From: Kordia sp. TARA_039_SRF
Lineage (GTDB): Bacteria > Bacteroidota > Bacteroidia > Flavobacteriales > Flavobacteriaceae
Reading direction: 5' to 3'
NCBI GenBank assembly: GCA_006383075.2
Contig: SMNH02000012.1
Location: 62,001-126,000, forward strand
DNA: 64,000 bases
Shown: piece by piece, positions 3,488-25,026 of the stretch
Position numbering within the stretch: the stretch's first letter is position 1
Layout: every line of letters begins with the position of its first letter
Made by a program: the position numbers and the translations under genes
The notes under the pieces: model-generated
Databases searched by the model: none
Seen by the model: the letters and a program-made list of their open reading frames with translations, nothing else
What the model was told of the DNA's origin: nothing

Positions 3488-4018
3488 TTAACTAATAACC
3501 TCTTTCAAAAAACCATACAACGCATACATTTCCTGCTTTCCTGTGGCTTTTCCCCAGCGCCCGCCGAAATACAACACAAACCAAATAACCACCATGAAAA
3601 ACATCAACGCAATTTGAATGGCGTACGAATTCTTTAAAGCTGCATTGGAATACGCCCAAACACCGAATCCGATAAACAAACACGCAACTAAAAAGTGTAA
3701 AAACATAAAAAACGTCCACACAGTCGGACTCGGGCCAAACAATCCGTGAAGCATACAGGAATTTTCATCAATCTCATCCACTTCTACATGGAGTTGTGGC
3801 GACCAAAAATGTTGCTGTGCTTTCGGAATTTTAATAAACACATGCTGGTCAATGCGAGAAACCACAAAAGTTTTTTGACTTTTCTTAGTTGCTTCCAAAC
3901 GTGCTAAAATGGCTTCTGCCGATTCAGAAAGCTCCATTTTAAACCGCGGACGCAATACAATTTCTTCTCCTAAACTCATGGTTGCCAATTTTAAAAAATC
4001 CAAAATAGTAGATTCCAT
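3488..4018 (-). CDS. Conserved protein with C-terminal membrane anchor, unknown function
   Basis: 176 residues. Residues 1-95 are soluble and look like a small alpha/beta domain (VVSRIDQHVFIKIPKAQQHF, then HVEVDEIDENSCMLHGLFG). Two membrane helices follow at about 101-121 and 131-152, with a short cytoplasmic tail. The family is not recognised with certainty. It sits between era and der on the opposite strand and ends just beyond the heptamer array. The divergent der promoter lies between its start and der. No catalytic motif is visible. Confidence 0.6.
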   Translation of the reverse strand: MESTILDFLKLATMSLGEEIVLRPRFKMELSESAEAILARLEATKKSQKTFVVSRIDQHVFIKIPKAQQHFWSPQLHVEVDEIDENSCMLHGLFGPSPTVWTFFMFLHFLVACLFIGFGVWAYSNAALKNSYAIQIALMFFMVVIWFVLYFGGRWGKATGKQEMYALYGFLKEVIS

Positions 4019-4093
4019 CCAAAAGAATGCTGATAAAAATCATAAACTCCTAAAACTTACTGCAATTTACTTTTTACGCGTCGTTAGAAAACG

Positions 4094-4101
4094 TACCTTT
4101 G
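4094..4101 (+). promoter_or_regulatory. Predicted der promoter, -7 box
   Basis: TACCTTTG matches TAnnTTTG exactly, 19 bases before the der ATG, giving a short A-rich leader. Confidence 0.55.
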
Positions 4102-4120
4102 CAGGCACAAAAAGAACGAA

Positions 4121-5425
4121 ATGAGTAATATAGTAGCCATCGTAGGACGACCAAATGTAGGGAAATCAACATTGTTTAATCGCATGATAAAGCGCAGAGA
4201 AGCAATTGTAGATTCAGTAAGTGGTGTGACTCGTGATCGCCATTATGGAAAATCGGATTGGAACGGAAAAGAATTTTCACTAATTGATACAGGCGGATAT
4301 GTCGTAGGAAGTGATGATATTTTTGAACAAGAAATTGACAAGCAAGTAGAATTAGCAATCGATGAAGCCGACGCAATTCTTTTTGTGGTGGATGTCGAAG
4401 CTGGAATTACAGGAATGGACGAAGAAGTGGCAAACTTACTCCGCAGAGTCAACAAGCCTGTTTTATTGGTAGTTAACAAAGTAGATGCTGCCAATCGTTT
4501 GCACGATGCTACCGAATTTTACTCGTTAGGCTTAGGTGAATACTATCCAATAGCAAGTATTAACGGAAGTGGAACTGGCGAAATGTTAGACGCACTCATA
4601 GAAGCCTTGCCTGATGTTGAAGAAAAAGAAGAAGAAAACTTGCCGCGTTTTGCCGTGGTGGGACGACCAAACGCTGGAAAATCATCCCTAATCAATGCGC
4701 TAATTGGAGAAGACAGATACATTGTAACTGACATTGCAGGAACAACGCGTGATGCGATTGATACCAAATACAATCGTTTCGGATTTGAATTCAACTTAGT
4801 AGATACGGCTGGAATCCGACGAAAAGCCAAAGTAAAAGAAGACTTAGAGTTTTACTCCGTAATGCGCTCTATTCGTGCTATTGAACATTCGGATGTGTGT
4901 TTGTTAGTTGTAGATGCCACGAGAGGATTTGATTCGCAAGTACAAAACATTTTCTGGCTAGCGGAAAAAAATCACAAAGGAATTGTCATTTTGGTGAATA
5001 AGTGGGATTTGGTTGAGAAAAATACGTCTACCGTAAAAGAATTTGAACAACACATTCGTCAACAAATTGAGCCGTTTACAGACGTTCCTATTGTTTTTAT
5101 TTCGGCGTTGACCAAACAGCGAATCTTCAAAGCGATTGAAACTGCGGTACAAGTCTATAAAAATCGCTCACATCGAGTACCAACTAGTAAACTCAACGAT
5201 GTCATGTTGCCAATCATTGAAAACACGCCGCCGCCAGCATACAAGGGAAAATACATCAAAATAAAATTCTGTACGCAATTGCCAACGGCATATCCACAAT
5301 TTGCTTTCTTTGCCAATTTGCCACAATACATTCGCGATCCGTACCGAAGATTCGTAGAAAACAAACTCCGTGAACAATTTGATTACACAGGCGTACCAAT
5401 TCAAGTGTATTTCAGAAAAAAATAA
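4121..5425 (+). CDS. der: Ribosome biogenesis GTPase Der (EngA)
   Basis: 434 residues with the two tandem GTPase domains diagnostic of Der. The first has GRPNVGKS at residues 9-16, DTGG at 56-59 and a VNKVD motif near 120. The second has GRPNAGKS near 180, DTAG near 230 and NKWD near 290. A C-terminal KH-like domain follows, ending in PIQVYFRKK. Der acts in 50S subunit assembly. The short membrane protein at 5428 starts two bases after the stop, so it is probably translated from the same message. Confidence 0.97.
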
Positions 5426-5427
5426 CC

Positions 5428-5694
5428 ATGTCACCCAAAGCAATTCTCATCGCATTTGTCATTGTCAGTTTATTACTGATTGGCGTGATGTTTTTAGCGG
5501 TGGATGGAAGAAACAATACATTAGTTCCTAAATCGGAAAATAGTATTTCAACTCAAAAAAAATCGCAAGAACAAATTCTTCTTAAAGATTCCATTCACAA
5601 AAAAGACAACGGGAACCTTCAAAAAATAAAAGACAGTATTCGTTTGCAGAAAATTATAGACTCGCTTCAAGCAATAAAAACTACTTCGGAATAA
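5428..5694 (+). CDS. Small single-pass membrane protein downstream of der
   Basis: 88 residues. One N-terminal membrane helix (about residues 4-24) is followed by a charged, probably helical tail with a repeated pattern of KDSI and QK. No family is recognised. It begins two bases after the der stop, so coupled translation is likely. The topology predicts a short cytoplasmic N-terminus and a tail outside the inner membrane. Confidence 0.6.
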   Translation: MSPKAILIAFVIVSLLLIGVMFLAVDGRNNTLVPKSENSISTQKKSQEQILLKDSIHKKDNGNLQKIKDSIRLQKIIDSLQAIKTTSE

Positions 5695-5728
5695 TTTTTA
5701 AACACTATTTCGATAAATTTTCTTTATT

Positions 5729-5765
5729 GCAACCATGTTGCTTTAACAAATTTGACCTAAATTTG
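5729..5765 (+). promoter_or_regulatory. CobW-family gene promoter with palindrome over the -33 element
   Basis: TAAATTTG at 5758-5765 is a perfect -7 box. The TTG at 5738-5740, 17 bases upstream, can serve as the -33 element. It lies inside the inverted repeat GCAAC-CAT-GTTGC (5729-5741), so a protein bound to the repeat would block the promoter. A zinc-responsive repressor (Zur) would suit the downstream gene, but I cannot confirm that the motif belongs to Zur. Confidence 0.5.
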
Positions 5766-5784
5766 TAATGTAAAGTATTCAACT

Positions 5785-7008
5785 ATGGAAATTTCAAAAA
5801 AACTACCAGTTACCGTACTAAGCGGATTTTTAGGTGCAGGAAAAACAACATTACTCAATCATATTTTGCACAACAAAGAAGGTCTCAAAGTAGCCGTTAT
5901 TGTCAATGATATGAGTGAAGTAAATGTAGATGCCAACTTGGTAAAAAGTGAAAATGTACTTTCGCGAACAGAAGAAAAACTCGTAGAAATGAGCAACGGT
6001 TGTATTTGTTGCACCTTGCGGGAAGATCTCATGGTTGAAGTGGAACGTTTGGCAAAAGAAGATCGTTTTGACTATTTATTAATAGAAAGTACAGGAATTA
6101 GCGAACCGATTCCCGTGGCGCAAACCTTTTCTTTTGTGGATGAAACTAACGGAATCGACTTGTCGCGTTTTAGCTATGTAGATACGATGGTAACGGTGGT
6201 AGATGCATTTAACTTTTTTAAAGATTTTGGAAGTCCAGAAACGCTTATGGACAGAAATTTGACTGATATTGAAGGCGATTTTAGAACCATCGTAAACCTC
6301 TTAACTGATCAAATTGAATTTGCCAACGTCATTATTCTGAATAAAGCAGATTTAGTGTCGGAAGATCATTTGGGTGTGTTGAAAGCTGCCATTCACAAAC
6401 TCAATCCTGCTGCGAAAATATTAGAATCAACCTATAGTAAAATCAATCCAACGGAAATTCTTAATACAGGACTGTTCAATTTTGAAGAAGCCGAACAAAG
6501 CGCAGGTTGGATTGAAGAACTCAACAAAGAAGCACACACGCCAGAAACCGAAGAATACGGAATTTCCTCGTTTGTATATCGCACCAAAAAACCATTCGAC
6601 CCAAGTCGTTTTCTATCCTATATTCAACAAAAATTTCCACATAACATCATTAGAAGCAAAGGACTTTTTTGGCTGGCTTCTCGTCCAGGTCAAGCATTAG
6701 TTTGGGGACAAGCTGGCGGATCAATAAAAGCAGATAGTGCCGGAGTTTGGTGGGCAAGTATGCCTTTTAAAGAACGGATTCAATACGCACCTTTTATTGA
6801 AAACCAACAACAAATAGAGGCAGATTGGGATATAACTTTTGGCGACAGAAAAAACGAAATAGTCTTTATCGGGCAAGATATGGACGAAACACAAATTAGA
6901 GCAGACTTAAATGCTTGTTTGGTAACTGAAGCTGGATTAGACAGTAATCATTGGCAAAAAGGCTACGAAGATTATTGGCCAGTACAAAGAGCATATGCTT
7001 TAAAATAA
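5785..7008 (+). CDS. CobW/ZigA-type GTP-dependent metallochaperone (COG0523)
   Basis: 407 residues. The Walker [10 protein letters not shown] is at residues 14-22. The metal-binding CxCC motif (GCICC) is at 72-76, followed by ESTGISEP and an NKAD guanine-specificity motif. The C-terminal CobW domain contains [16 protein letters not shown]0523 proteins insert metals into client enzymes, and the ZigA/YeiR branch serves zinc under limitation. The palindrome over its promoter fits metal-dependent repression. The neighbours are der upstream and an outer membrane barrel protein downstream, which could be functionally linked if it is a metal importer. That link is inference only. Confidence 0.9.
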
Positions 7009-7166
7009 AGATTGATGCCTTATATTATTTTTCACGATTGTACATTTTGTGTAGAGAATTGTCGTCATTTATGATTTTTGTCTCGTCTTTTAAGATTATT
7101 TTAATAATAATTAGTGAATTTTTCTGTTTGTTTGTTATCAAAACCGATTATCAATCAAAAAACGAA

Positions 7167-9935
7167 ATGAATAAACCATTTATCACATTGTTGATAGTAC
7201 TTTGCACGTTACTATCAGGAAATCTTTTTGCACAAGAATTTGAAATTAAAGGAAGTGTTGTAGACAGCACCACAAAATTACCGCTAGAATCTGCTACGAT
7301 ATATCTGCAAACACTAAAAGACTCTTCACTTATTACATACACGATTAGCGACAAAGACGGAAAATTTGAATTGGCAGGTCGTACACAACAAAAAGAAGCC
7401 AATTTATTTGTGACTTTTACAGGATTTAAACCGTATCAGCAAAAAATCACACTTGACAAATCAGTCATCACCTTGCCGCAAATCGGGATGGAAATAGCAG
7501 CAGACGAATTGGATGCCGTGCAAATTACAGCAATAAAAGCACCAATTACAGTTAAAAAAGATACGCTCGAATTCAACGCAGATTCTTTTAGAACACGTCC
7601 TGATGCAACGGTTGAAGACTTAATCAAGCAATTGCCAGGTGTTGAAGTTGATAGTGACGGAAAAATCAAAGTCAACGGTAAAGAAGTCAATAAGATTTTG
7701 GTAAACGGAAAGCCGTTTTTTGGAAACGATCCCAACATCGCAACGAAGAATCTAACCAAAGAAATTGTAGATAAAATTCAAGTAACCACGACCAAAAGTG
7801 AGTCGGAAGAATTTACAGGAAAACAAGCAACTTCGGAAGAACAAACCATTAACATAGAACTAAAAGAAGACCAAAATAAAGGTTTCTTCGGGCGAGCCAC
7901 CGTGAGCGGTGGAACGGACGAACGCTACGCCATGAGTGGAATTGGGAACTATTTTAATGACAAACAACGCGTTAGCGTATTGGGAAGTAAAAACAATATC
8001 AACAGTTCGGGTTTTAGTTTTGACGAAATTTACGATATGATGGGAAGTACCGCCAACAGTATTTCTAGAAACGGCAATGGTTCTTTTTCTATCAACGGAC
8101 AAAGTTTTGGTGGCGGACAAGGAATTACAACGACTACCAATGGCGGAATTAGTTTTGTGGACGAATACGAAGACAAAACAGAAATTGTTGCCGATTATTT
8201 CTATTCACGTGCCGATTCGGAAAATGAGAGTAGAGTAGAGCGTGAAAACATTCTGCCAGACGGACGTTTCTTTACGAATTCGAGAAGCACTTTTTTAAAC
8301 AAAAATGACAACCATCGCGCAAGTGCCGAATTGCAATTTGAAATTGATTCGACCTTTAAAATTTATGTGCGACCAAACTTTCAATTTACAGAAGGAGAAA
8401 ATTTTTCATCACGAACAGAAGAATCGTTAGATGAAGATGGCAACGTACTCAACACGGGAGTTTCCAGCGATTTTACAGAATCTGAACGTAGAAACTTTAG
8501 AAGTAATATTGACGTTATCAAGAAATTTGGAAGTAAAGGAGCATTTTTACGTATTGGAACCAACGGAAACTTTATCAACAATACATCAGACAATTTCCTA
8601 AATACAACCAATGAAATTTTTGGTACAATGCCATCCTCAGAAACCAGAGATCAATTGACAGATACAGAATCGAAAGAAAATAATATTTCTGCCGATATTG
8701 AATATCGAATTCCACTAAAAGAAAAACTATTTTTAGATGTTGAATATCGCTTCTCCAACAGACGAGAGCGCAACGACAGACGTGTTTTTGATTTTAACAA
8801 TACAACCAATGCGTATGACGATTTCAATGAAAGTCTAAGTTCTGATTTGCGCGTAAATTTCCAAACGCATTTGCCTAGAATTGGAATCAATTACGAAACG
8901 GAAAAACTATACCTTAGTTTCAACACAGGATTGTTTATTTCGGAGCTTGAAAACGAAGAATTCATTCAAAATACCTCTGTGCGTTCTACCTTTTCAGACA
9001 TTAACATCAACGGATACATGCGCTATCGCATCAAGCAAGGAATGAGTGTATATTTTAACTATAATACACGAACGCAAGCGCCACGTGCTCAGCAATTACA
9101 ACCTGTTGCCAATGTGAGCAATCCGCTAAATATTACGGTTGGTAATCCGAATTTGAATCGAGAGTTTAGCCATAACATGTATGCTAACTTTAACAACTAC
9201 GACTTCAAAACGCAATCAGGTTTTTTCTTATGGTTTTCGGGTGGTTTTACAAACGATCAAATTGTACCTGTATCGGTAACAGACGAAAACAGAATTCGTA
9301 CCACAACGTATACCAACGTTGACGGAATTATTAGAGCAAATGGTGGCGGTTCATTTAGCAAAACCATCAAAAAAGACAGTACATCGTTGCGCTACAGTGT
9401 TGGATTGTATGGAAACTATAACAAAAACTTCAACTTTAGTAATGGCGTTAAATTTTCAACGAAGCGTAGTGGAATTACACCAAGTGTGCGAATGACGTAC
9501 AGCTACAAAAAATTACTAGAAATAGAACCATCGTACAATATAAATTTCAACACAACAAAATATAGTTTAGACAATTTTGACAATGAATCGTTTCAAGCGC
9601 ATACGGTAGGATTGAAAACAACTACGTATTGGCCAAAAAATATTGTGTTTGGAAATGATTTGCGATATACCTATCAAACCAACGTAGCACCAGGATTTGA
9701 ACGAAGTTCTCTGTTTTGGAATATGAGTTTGGGACTCAAAATTTTAAATGACAAAGGAACCATCAAACTTACGGCGTACGATTTATTAGATCAAAATATC
9801 AATACGAGAAGAACCGTAACAGCTGACTTTATTCAAGATTCGCAAAGTACGGTGTTGCAACGTTACTTTATGCTTGGTTTTACTTATAAAGTCAACAAAG
9901 TCGGCGGAAATAAAAACAAATTTGAAGTGTTTTAA
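7167..9935 (+). CDS. TonB-dependent-receptor-like outer membrane beta-barrel protein
   Basis: 922 residues from the ATG at 7167. An upstream in-frame extension to 6951 overlaps the previous gene and lacks a signal peptide, so I rejected it. Residues 1-23 form a signal peptide ending LFAQ. A carboxypeptidase-regulatory-like domain follows (about 25-110: IKGSVVDSTTKLPLESATIY). Next comes a plug-like domain with PDATVEDLIKQLPGVEVDSD and a KILVNGKPFFGNDP segment, and then a large barrel with alternating aromatic strands. This arrangement is that of the outer-membrane-barrel family related to TonB receptors. The substrate is not evident. A strong terminator follows directly. Confidence 0.9.
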   Translation: MNKPFITLLIVLCTLLSGNLFAQEFEIKGSVVDSTTKLPLESATIYLQTLKDSSLITYTISDKDGKFELAGRTQQKEANLFVTFTGFKPYQQKITLDKSVITLPQIGMEIAADELDAVQITAIKAPITVKKDTLEFNADSFRTRPDATVEDLIKQLPGVEVDSDGKIKVNGKEVNKILVNGKPFFGNDPNIATKNLTKEIVDKIQVTTTKSESEEFTGKQATSEEQTINIELKEDQNKGFFGRATVSGGTDERYAMSGIGNYFNDKQRVSVLGSKNNINSSGFSFDEIYDMMGSTANSISRNGNGSFSINGQSFGGGQGITTTTNGGISFVDEYEDKTEIVADYFYSRADSENESRVERENILPDGRFFTNSRSTFLNKNDNHRASAELQFEIDSTFKIYVRPNFQFTEGENFSSRTEESLDEDGNVLNTGVSSDFTESERRNFRSNIDVIKKFGSKGAFLRIGTNGNFINNTSDNFLNTTNEIFGTMPSSETRDQLTDTESKENNISADIEYRIPLKEKLFLDVEYRFSNRRERNDRRVFDFNNTTNAYDDFNESLSSDLRVNFQTHLPRIGINYETEKLYLSFNTGLFISELENEEFIQNTSVRSTFSDININGYMRYRIKQGMSVYFNYNTRTQAPRAQQLQPVANVSNPLNITVGNPNLNREFSHNMYANFNNYDFKTQSGFFLWFSGGFTNDQIVPVSVTDENRIRTTTYTNVDGIIRANGGGSFSKTIKKDSTSLRYSVGLYGNYNKNFNFSNGVKFSTKRSGITPSVRMTYSYKKLLEIEPSYNINFNTTKYSLDNFDNESFQAHTVGLKTTTYWPKNIVFGNDLRYTYQTNVAPGFERSSLFWNMSLGLKILNDKGTIKLTAYDLLDQNINTRRTVTADFIQDSQSTVLQRYFMLGFTYKVNKVGGNKNKFEVF

Positions 9936-21674: not shown

Positions 21675-21876
21675 ATGAAAAAGAAAAGTTTAAAAAATTT
21701 ACAACTACGAAAAAGTTCAATTTCAATTTTGGAAAATCTATCTGTAAAAGGAGGAAATACCTATGATAGCCGAATGAATCATTTGCCCTGAACCAGATAC
21801 GGAAGGAGCAGGTTGTAATACGAATGCAACAGGCTGTCAAACATTTGCTTCCTACTGTGATTGTGGAACGTACTAG
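21675..21876 (+). pseudogene. RiPP precursor gene disrupted by a one-base frameshift in the core
   Basis: The ATG at 21675 opens a leader very like its neighbour (KNLQLRKSSISILENLSVK, then Gly-Gly). After NTYDSRMNHLP the frame hits TGA at 21789-21791. The +1 frame from about 21772 continues without a stop as IICPEPDTEGAGCNTNATGC and ends YCDCGTY with TAG at 21874-21876. Joining the frames by removing one base near 21768-21775 gives a precursor of about 66 residues with five core cysteines, like the first copy. It is either a true loss of function, a sequencing or assembly error, or, less likely, programmed frameshifting. Confidence 0.75.
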
Positions 21877-24750: not shown

Positions 24751-24758
24751 TATCTTTG
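24751..24758 (+). promoter_or_regulatory. Promoter of the third RiPP precursor, -7 box
   Basis: TATCTTTG fits TAnnTTTG exactly, 28 bases before the precursor ATG. The -33 region (CTTTAAC) is weak. Confidence 0.55.
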
Positions 24759-24786: not shown

Positions 24787-24966
24787 ATGAAAAGAAAACT
24801 TACCAACGATTTGAGGTTGAACAAACGTTCTGTCTCAAATCTAAATGCTATTGTTGCTGGTGGACCGCCTCCTCCGCCAGGAAGTAACTCATGTGTAGGA
24901 GTGCAAACATGTCTTACCTGTGAAGGCAATACATGTGAGCAGACATGTGACAGAACTTGTACCTAA
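24787..24966 (+). CDS. RiPP precursor peptide with six Ser/Thr-Cys pairs
   Basis: 59 residues. The leader MKRKLTNDLRLNKRSVSNL has the LNK-x-S-V-x-x-L pattern shared with the two precursors at 21.4-21.9 kb. It ends AIVAGG, so Gly-Gly is at 25-26. The core begins with five prolines. In the last 25 residues every cysteine (36, 42, 45, 50, 54, 58) is directly preceded by Ser or Thr: SC, TC, TC, TC, TC, TC. No modifying enzyme or exporter is adjacent. The gene stands between the TetR regulator and paaE, with its own promoter and terminator, so it is transcriptionally separate from phenylacetate genes. Lanthionine, thiazoline or disulfide chemistry is possible and cannot be chosen from sequence alone. 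Confidence 0.8.
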   Translation: MKRKLTNDLRLNKRSVSNLNAIVAGGPPPPPGSNSCVGVQTCLTCEGNTCEQTCDRTCT

Positions 24967-24996
24967 ACTATTTTATTTAGATGCAATAAAACCATG

Positions 24997-25026
24997 AAAG
25001 AGCCTTTATGTAAGGGCTCTTTTTTT
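24997..25026 (+). terminator. Rho-independent terminator after the third precursor
   Basis: AAAGAGCC pairs with GGCTCTTT, and the stem extends inward (TTTA/TAAG with one G-U). A T-run follows. It insulates the precursor from the paa promoter 40 bases on. Confidence 0.9.

Follow-up and report, generated by a model that had tools for sequence, protein, structure and literature searches.

The window, i.e. the whole stretch of 64,000 nucleotides of Kordia sp. TARA_039_SRF that was analysed, contains a small gene for a peptide of 59 amino acids, whose translation from ATG to TAA is MKRKLTNDLRLNKRSVSNLNAIVAGGPPPPPGSNSCVGVQTCLTCEGNTCEQTCDRTCT (Table 1). According to the initial annotation, all six cysteines of this peptide directly follow a serine or threonine residue, with spacings of 6, 3, 5, 4 and 4, behind a leader of the Bacteroidota class I lanthipeptide type. 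These readings hold. Cys36 is preceded by Ser and the cysteines at positions 42, 45, 50, 54 and 58 by Thr, the spacings are as claimed, and the leader is an exact match to the motif LxLxKx5L (L9, L11, K13 and L19) with Gly-Gly in addition. This motif is described for leaders of Bacteroidota class I lanthipeptides (available part of PMC7268733).

Table 1. Positions of the features in the window and in the loci L063, L066 and L067 of the same genome (G000)
Feature	Location	Strand	Basis
Predicted precursor peptide gene, 59 aa + stop	24787..24966	plus	ORF, orthologues, dN/dS about 0.18
Leader, residues 1-26, LxLxKx5L + Gly25-Gly26	24787..24864	plus	sequence
Core, residues 27-59, PPPPPGSNSC followed by five TC dyads	24865..24963	plus	sequence
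Terminator-like hairpin, then T run	24996..25023	plus	sequence search
TATCTTTG, fits the -7 motif TAnnTTTG	24751..24758	plus	weak; motif not enriched over the library
Second predicted precursor, same leader family, 57 aa	21423..21596	plus	profile, 46 bits; its leader is also a profile row
Third leader-bearing ORF, 38 aa, short Cys-free core	21675..21791	plus	profile match; possibly degenerate
Leader ORF in own hub, C1:270081, E 0.1	L063, ~3913-4167	minus	profile match
Leader ORF in own hub, C1:275138, E 0.002	L063, ~9075-9215	minus	profile match
LanC + HopA1 + APH-like trio	L066 (G000 C3:474000-486000), 5663-9057	minus	domain reading
LanM-like protein, 957 aa, DUF4135 + LANC	L067 (G000 C5:122000-136000), 4768-7641	plus	

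In Pfam no match to the window peptide was found, and in NCBIfam only the leader model NF038153 matched (15 bits at a cut-off of 22); a Nif11-type leader was absent from the peptide in the searches of both collections. NF038153 likewise matched six of ten orthologues of the peptide at E ≤ 1 and eight of ten sister peptides of the library described below (sampled at every 14th place), one of these over the cut-off. A leader profile of our own (A3), built from 15 family members, gave 53.5 bits for the window leader, which is itself row 1 of this profile.

The surrounding genes, assigned by reading of their translations, comprise a TetR-type regulator, an aromatic amino acid hydroxylase-like gene and a phenylacetate (paa) cluster. 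Behind the gene lies a hairpin followed by a T run, and comparable structures were seen by eye behind several of its orthologues. Two more ORFs with the same type of leader are located upstream (Table 1). For the longer one, tblastn gave matches 5' of the hydroxylase-like gene in three of eight Kordia loci, with 95, 65 and 38% identity.

Conservation of the gene and of its dyads

Orthologues of the window peptide with 60-80% identity were detected in nine of the ten other Kordia genomes searched (L003-L011); the Kordia genome G004 is without one. At all eight named Kordia loci checked, the gene is located between a TetR-type and a paaE-like gene. A search with the orthologue alignment returned nine named loci, eight of them from Kordia and one a weak match in a Beijerinckiaceae MAG. 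Spread by plasmids was also considered and was dismissed, the peptide being unmatched in 72,556 plasmid records.

The median dN/dS ratio (NG86) was 0.18 over 45 pairs, at a median dS of about 1.1, which is near saturation. The 301 pairwise differences in the dyad codons consist of 238 synonymous and 63 nonsynonymous ones, whereas the 390 differences in the other core codons past residue 36 are 110 synonymous and 280 nonsynonymous. At positions 35, 49 and 53, Ser and Thr are exchanged for each other among the orthologues. Conservation of the dyads among homologues, on which the initial annotation had made its reading depend, was confirmed: in the ten orthologues, the window peptide included, 54 of the 57 core cysteines stand behind Ser or Thr and three behind Ala. 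The three Ala-Cys cases (L009, L010 and L011) each concern the last dyad of the peptide. In L005, Cys45 is replaced by Tyr while Thr41 is kept, so that five core cysteines are left.

The orthologue of K. algicida (G010; L010/L061) has a shortened core with four core cysteines kept and a C-terminal Ala-Cys-Asn.

A leader family dispersed over the genome

The same leader heads short ORFs throughout the genome. The window peptide thus belongs to a library scattered over the genome, which is more unusual than the single dyad peptide. Matches to the leader profile at E ≤ 0.01 were found in all 11 Kordia genomes, from at least 95 up to at least 150 per genome (at least 99 in G004); at most 150 candidates of each genome were scored, a number reached by four genomes. 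The own genome (G000) holds at least 127 matches at E ≤ 0.01 and at least 144 at E ≤ 10. From these 144, 141 were kept, and the three dropped were frames of 22-25 residues without Met. Among the 141 leaders, 93 show the strict motif LxLxKx5L, 139 a relaxed form and 134 the Gly-Gly. The genes form 96 groups on 17 contigs, and 66 of these groups consist of a single gene. Cysteine occurs only twice in 3718 leader residues but makes up 11.5% of the core residues; 135 of the 141 cores contain at least two Cys and two contain none. The start of the cores was set by pattern, so that an error of some residues is possible and a few cores begin before the Gly-Gly. A similarity filter applied to the cores removed none of them.

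Since the library was collected by the leader alone, the content of its cores is an independent test of how these peptides might be modified. Ser or Thr was found 3-6 residues upstream of 595 of the 673 core cysteines (88.4%; z about 20), compared to an expectation of 51.8% (sd 1.8) in full shuffles and of 57.8% if the Cys were kept fixed. At 3-6 residues downstream, in contrast, Ser or Thr accompanies 343 of the 673 cysteines (51.0%), which is the chance level. A one-to-one assignment of a donor 3-6 residues upstream is possible for 88.1% of the cysteines (shuffles 47.7%; mirrored cores 49.0%), and for distances of 2-6 residues the corresponding values are 89.7%, 54.1% and 64.3%. In 17 peptides of other genomes, namely the 11 best matches of the orthologue search and six peptides from LanB loci (weaker matches at these loci were left out), 74 of 89 cysteines fit the upstream spacing, compared to 52% in shuffles. 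This position of Ser or Thr before Cys is a signature of lanthionine rings; thioether rings predict it, and there is no cause to expect it from disulfides or metal sites.

Ser and Thr are also enriched at +2 from Cys (31.8% vs 21.2% in shuffles, z 6.6) and in the range from +2 to +5 (z 5.6), and are depleted directly after Cys. From the enrichment at +2 it follows that short rings in the reverse direction may occur as well. Further deviations are an enrichment of Ser and Thr at -9 and +9 and a depletion at -7 (z -2.6).

Proline is common at +1 of Cys in the library cores, and a distance of 6 between two cysteines is frequent.

It was also considered whether the library as a whole is built on dyads, and this was rejected. 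The pair [ST]C accounts for 18.7% of the cysteines, vs 18.6% in full shuffles and 20.9% with Cys fixed, and since it is not enriched, the dyad design is particular to the window peptide. Six dyads were reached in 3e-5 of 200,000 shuffles of its 34-residue core, and among the 141 cores of the own genome, itself counted, it is the only one with three or more cysteines all of which are in dyads. Over 141 peptides about 0.004 such cases would be expected by chance, a rough value calculated with 3e-5 for each peptide, although their composition differs.

The motif TAnnTTTG is the -7 element of Bacteroidota promoters. As a promoter of the whole library it was rejected, because it was present in 20 of 141 upstream regions vs a mean of 19.7 in shuffles. 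Gapped word pairs upstream of the library genes were confined to small subsets, little above the shuffled reference, and yielded no common promoter motif.

Candidate modification enzymes and their link to the leader

The enzymes and the exporter that the initial annotation had asked for, i.e. LanB, LanC and a C39 exporter, are all present in the own genome. They are encoded in one hub (L063, G000 C1:266001-285900), which comprises C39-ABC, HlyD, Lant_dehydr_C, Lant_dehydr_N and LanC, and also two TPR-AraC regulators, a TPR protein and a small protein with Sigma70 region 2. The glutamylation domain of LanB (Lant_dehydr_N) was found exactly once in each of the 11 Kordia genomes. In the four loci read, those of G003, G010, G004 and the own genome, LanB-N, LanB-C and LanC occur together, and the three proteins of the own hub share 89-94% identity with those of G003 and G010. 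The identities of the neighbouring AraC, TPR and sorting-domain proteins amount to 44-70% and that of the sigma-like protein to 84-86% in the same two genomes. The C39 exporter is 95% identical in G010 and unmatched in the stretch of G003, which ends there. LanB-N matches the solved NisB and its relatives. In an alignment with a solved LanC, the LanC of the hub keeps the motifs WCYG and CHG, which have a role in zinc binding.

The window gene is located on contig C12 and the LanB hub on contig C1, and the gene is therefore not beside LanB or LanC; its link to the hub is by the leader and not by neighbourhood. A hub without any precursor was at one point considered, as pattern searches had given none there; this was abandoned when the profile search gave two weak leader ORFs (Table 1).

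Of these, the ORF at C1:270081 has a Cys-rich core which by eye resembles a leader ORF of the LanB locus of G087 (L168). The core at C1:275138 contains Ser and Thr but no Cys, and could yield dehydrated residues only.

Outside the own genome, leader and LanB also go together. In 199 genomes of the family, leader matches were found in at least 8 of the 18 genomes with LanB and in at least 2 of the 181 without LanB (both partial matches), the counts being lower bounds since at most 42 leader candidates were scored in each genome. Fisher's test gave 3e-8 for this co-occurrence and 3e-6 without the two Kordia, for genomes which are not independent of each other. In five of the six non-Kordia genomes with both leader and LanB, a leader ORF is present within the LanB locus (L164-L168), and the locus of the sixth (G112, L169) has none, though leader and LanB are both in the genome. 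These loci were chosen by leader match, with the other 10 of the 18 LanB genomes left out.

Beside the hub, further enzymes of lanthionine type are encoded. More than one LanC protein was detected in 10 of the 11 Kordia genomes; G004 has the hub LanC only. A LanC + HopA1 + APH-like trio was read in the own genome, which resembles class V lanthipeptide enzymes, and HopA1 is present in 10 of the 11 Kordia genomes and missing in G004. A LanM-like protein was likewise read in G000 (Table 1). Full matches to LanC in frames of 974-982 aa were obtained for three of the 11 Kordia genomes (that of G000 was read), and four genomes have frames of 640-654 aa that match LanC in part. In addition, all 11 genomes encode SPASM domains, between one and seven each, and an additional or alternative rSAM step on the peptide may take place.

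Proposed ring formation and comparison with known systems

Taken together, these observations make it likely that the window gene codes for a class I lanthipeptide precursor, presumably expressed and modified, with rings between its dyads, and that it belongs to a dispersed library served by one LanB. The chromosome has one LanB hub, which would recognise the leader with LxLxKx5L and Gly-Gly. The split LanB, consisting of a glutamylation protein and a separate elimination protein, would dehydrate Ser and Thr of the core, and the adjoining LanC would add the Cys thiols onto the dehydro-residues. A requirement for tRNA-Glu has been described for other Bacteroidota (available part of PMC9993889). 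Together with HlyD, the C39-ABC exporter would most probably cleave at the Gly-Gly and export the peptide.

The core contains eight Ser/Thr in all, and no ring is expected inside a dyad. Each Ser or Thr would join a downstream Cys, in the simplest register the one of the next dyad, and the predicted ring map is S33-C36, S35-C42, T41-C45, T44-C50, T49-C54 and T53-C58, with T57 left over. Successive rings would overlap and form a chain, similar to rings D and E of nisin. In the ten orthologues, a private Ser or Thr donor 3-7 residues upstream can be assigned to all 57 core cysteines. For C42 a donor at 3-6 residues upstream is lacking, and S35 lies at a distance of 7, which is disfavoured in the library, so that S35-C42 is the least certain ring of the map. 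The three losses of Thr to Ala concern precisely those dyads whose donor is unneeded in the shifted register, and a reverse register does not predict them; relaxed constraint near the C-terminus would equally explain losses in the last dyad.

One alternative is that another lanthionine system modifies the peptide, either the APH + HopA1 + LanC trio or the LanM-like enzyme. Both were read in G000, and HopA1 and the window peptide are each present in 10 of 11 Kordia genomes and jointly missing in G004. Against this, the leader family is associated with LanB loci both in G000 and in other genera. Furthermore, G004 maintains its many leaders with neither HopA1 nor a second LanC, and the family as a whole therefore needs neither system, although G004, the clearest case for LanB, is also the genome without the window peptide; the LanM-sized frames with full LanC match are restricted to three genomes, while leaders occur in all 11. 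We regard this alternative as improbable.

Slightly less probable still is that the cysteines stay unmodified until export and then form disulfides or bind metal, the adjacent Ser and Thr being incidental. Six cysteines could form three disulfides, and the dyad cysteines are slightly more strictly kept than their partners in the ten orthologues (one loss, to Tyr in L005, vs three, to Ala). However, the exchanges between Ser and Thr at positions 35, 49 and 53 suggest that a hydroxyl group is selected, in the library Ser and Thr are positioned 3-6 residues upstream of Cys and not at the same distance downstream, and the number of core cysteines is not always even, as the five in L005 show.

That the gene is a silent relic, an orphan without product, is very unlikely. 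It does stand alone and far from the hub, and the K. algicida orthologue is shortened, but purifying selection, the same site at eight of eight loci and the terminator-like hairpin argue against this reading.

Cyclisation to thiazol(in)es, which had been named as one of the chemical options, can practically be set aside: azolines need no ring spacing and would tolerate the adjacency, but the search for YcaO, the usual enzyme, was negative in all 11 Kordia genomes and positive in 5 of 14 control genomes. Among the options of the initial annotation, rings between the pairs are the one that fits.

Its view that adjacency alone sets the core apart from ordinary lanthipeptides could not be upheld, as nisin contains one Thr-Cys pair inside its rings D and E. 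These two rings are described as "intertwined" (available part of PMC5294574). The difference is that nisin has a single such pair in two overlapping rings, whereas the window peptide has six dyads in a row, for which the ring map is a prediction.

The precursors of Bacteroidota class I lanthipeptides, as far as described in the available part of PMC7268733, share with the window peptide the leader motif, the Gly-Gly, a core rich in Cys, Ser and Thr, a split LanB as for pinensin, LanC and a C39 protease. That study considered precursors at most seven genes away from a protein with a LanC domain, whereas the window gene lies at a great distance from the hub, in a library with more than 100 members. 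The library is organised like those of the prochlorosins and synechococsins, with 29 substrates of ProcM and 79 of SyncM (PMC10783134; for SyncM also the available part of PMC9872173). Common to them and to the Kordia library, here in gene architecture alone, are one modification system, a conserved leader with Gly-Gly and many scattered precursors with diverse cores. The prochlorosins, however, depend on a class II LanM and Nif11-type leaders, unlike the split class I LanB and LanC of Kordia, whose window peptide gave no Nif11 match; Kordia also has more precursors per genome, and at least the window member has kept its position throughout most of the genus.

In the available part of a TrRiPP survey (PMC11118758), up to 176 RiPP precursors are given for a Bacteroidota genome, which is not stated to be Kordia, and Kordia serves as exemplar for the lanthipeptide and rSAM-modified classes; these parts do not contain a hub with one LanB, the common leader, the ring-spacing signature or the window peptide. 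Further reports concern a lanthipeptide cluster of K. antarctica and a Kordia cluster of proteusin-like type (PMC7477175 and PMC10734526, in their available parts). Thus, as far as these sources extend, the leader type, split LanBs, the scheme of one synthetase with many precursors (for class II) and the richness of Kordia in RiPPs are already known, and a one-LanB library with a common leader was not found in the open-licence literature.

On balance, we lean slightly towards a wider reading, in which one nearly invariant split LanB/LanC hub processes more than 100 dispersed cores and would represent the largest known single-synthetase lanthipeptide library, equivalent in class I to the prochlorosins and of separate origin. 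The window peptide would be an old and fixed member, whose six dyads might form continuous interlocked thioether rings. If true, this would be a class I system of a breadth so far described, in the literature covered, for the class II enzymes ProcM and SyncM, and it could serve to build peptide libraries and to study how recognition of the leader leaves the core free to evolve. The spacing signature could provide predictions of ring pairing for each core before any chemistry, and the six-dyad peptide would be a clean test of how LanC chooses among overlapping partners.

The leader is also found beyond Kordia. In a class-wide sample of 395 genomes, in which at most 21 leader candidates were scored per genome, at least three genomes, the own included, showed leader matches at E ≤ 0.001. 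The non-Kordia genome G087 of the same family has at least 12 leader matches on four contigs together with one LanB, which is a similar arrangement of smaller size. In G595, which belongs to another family of the class, at least six leader matches lie within about 5 kb (C5:53775-58454) and form a clustered array.
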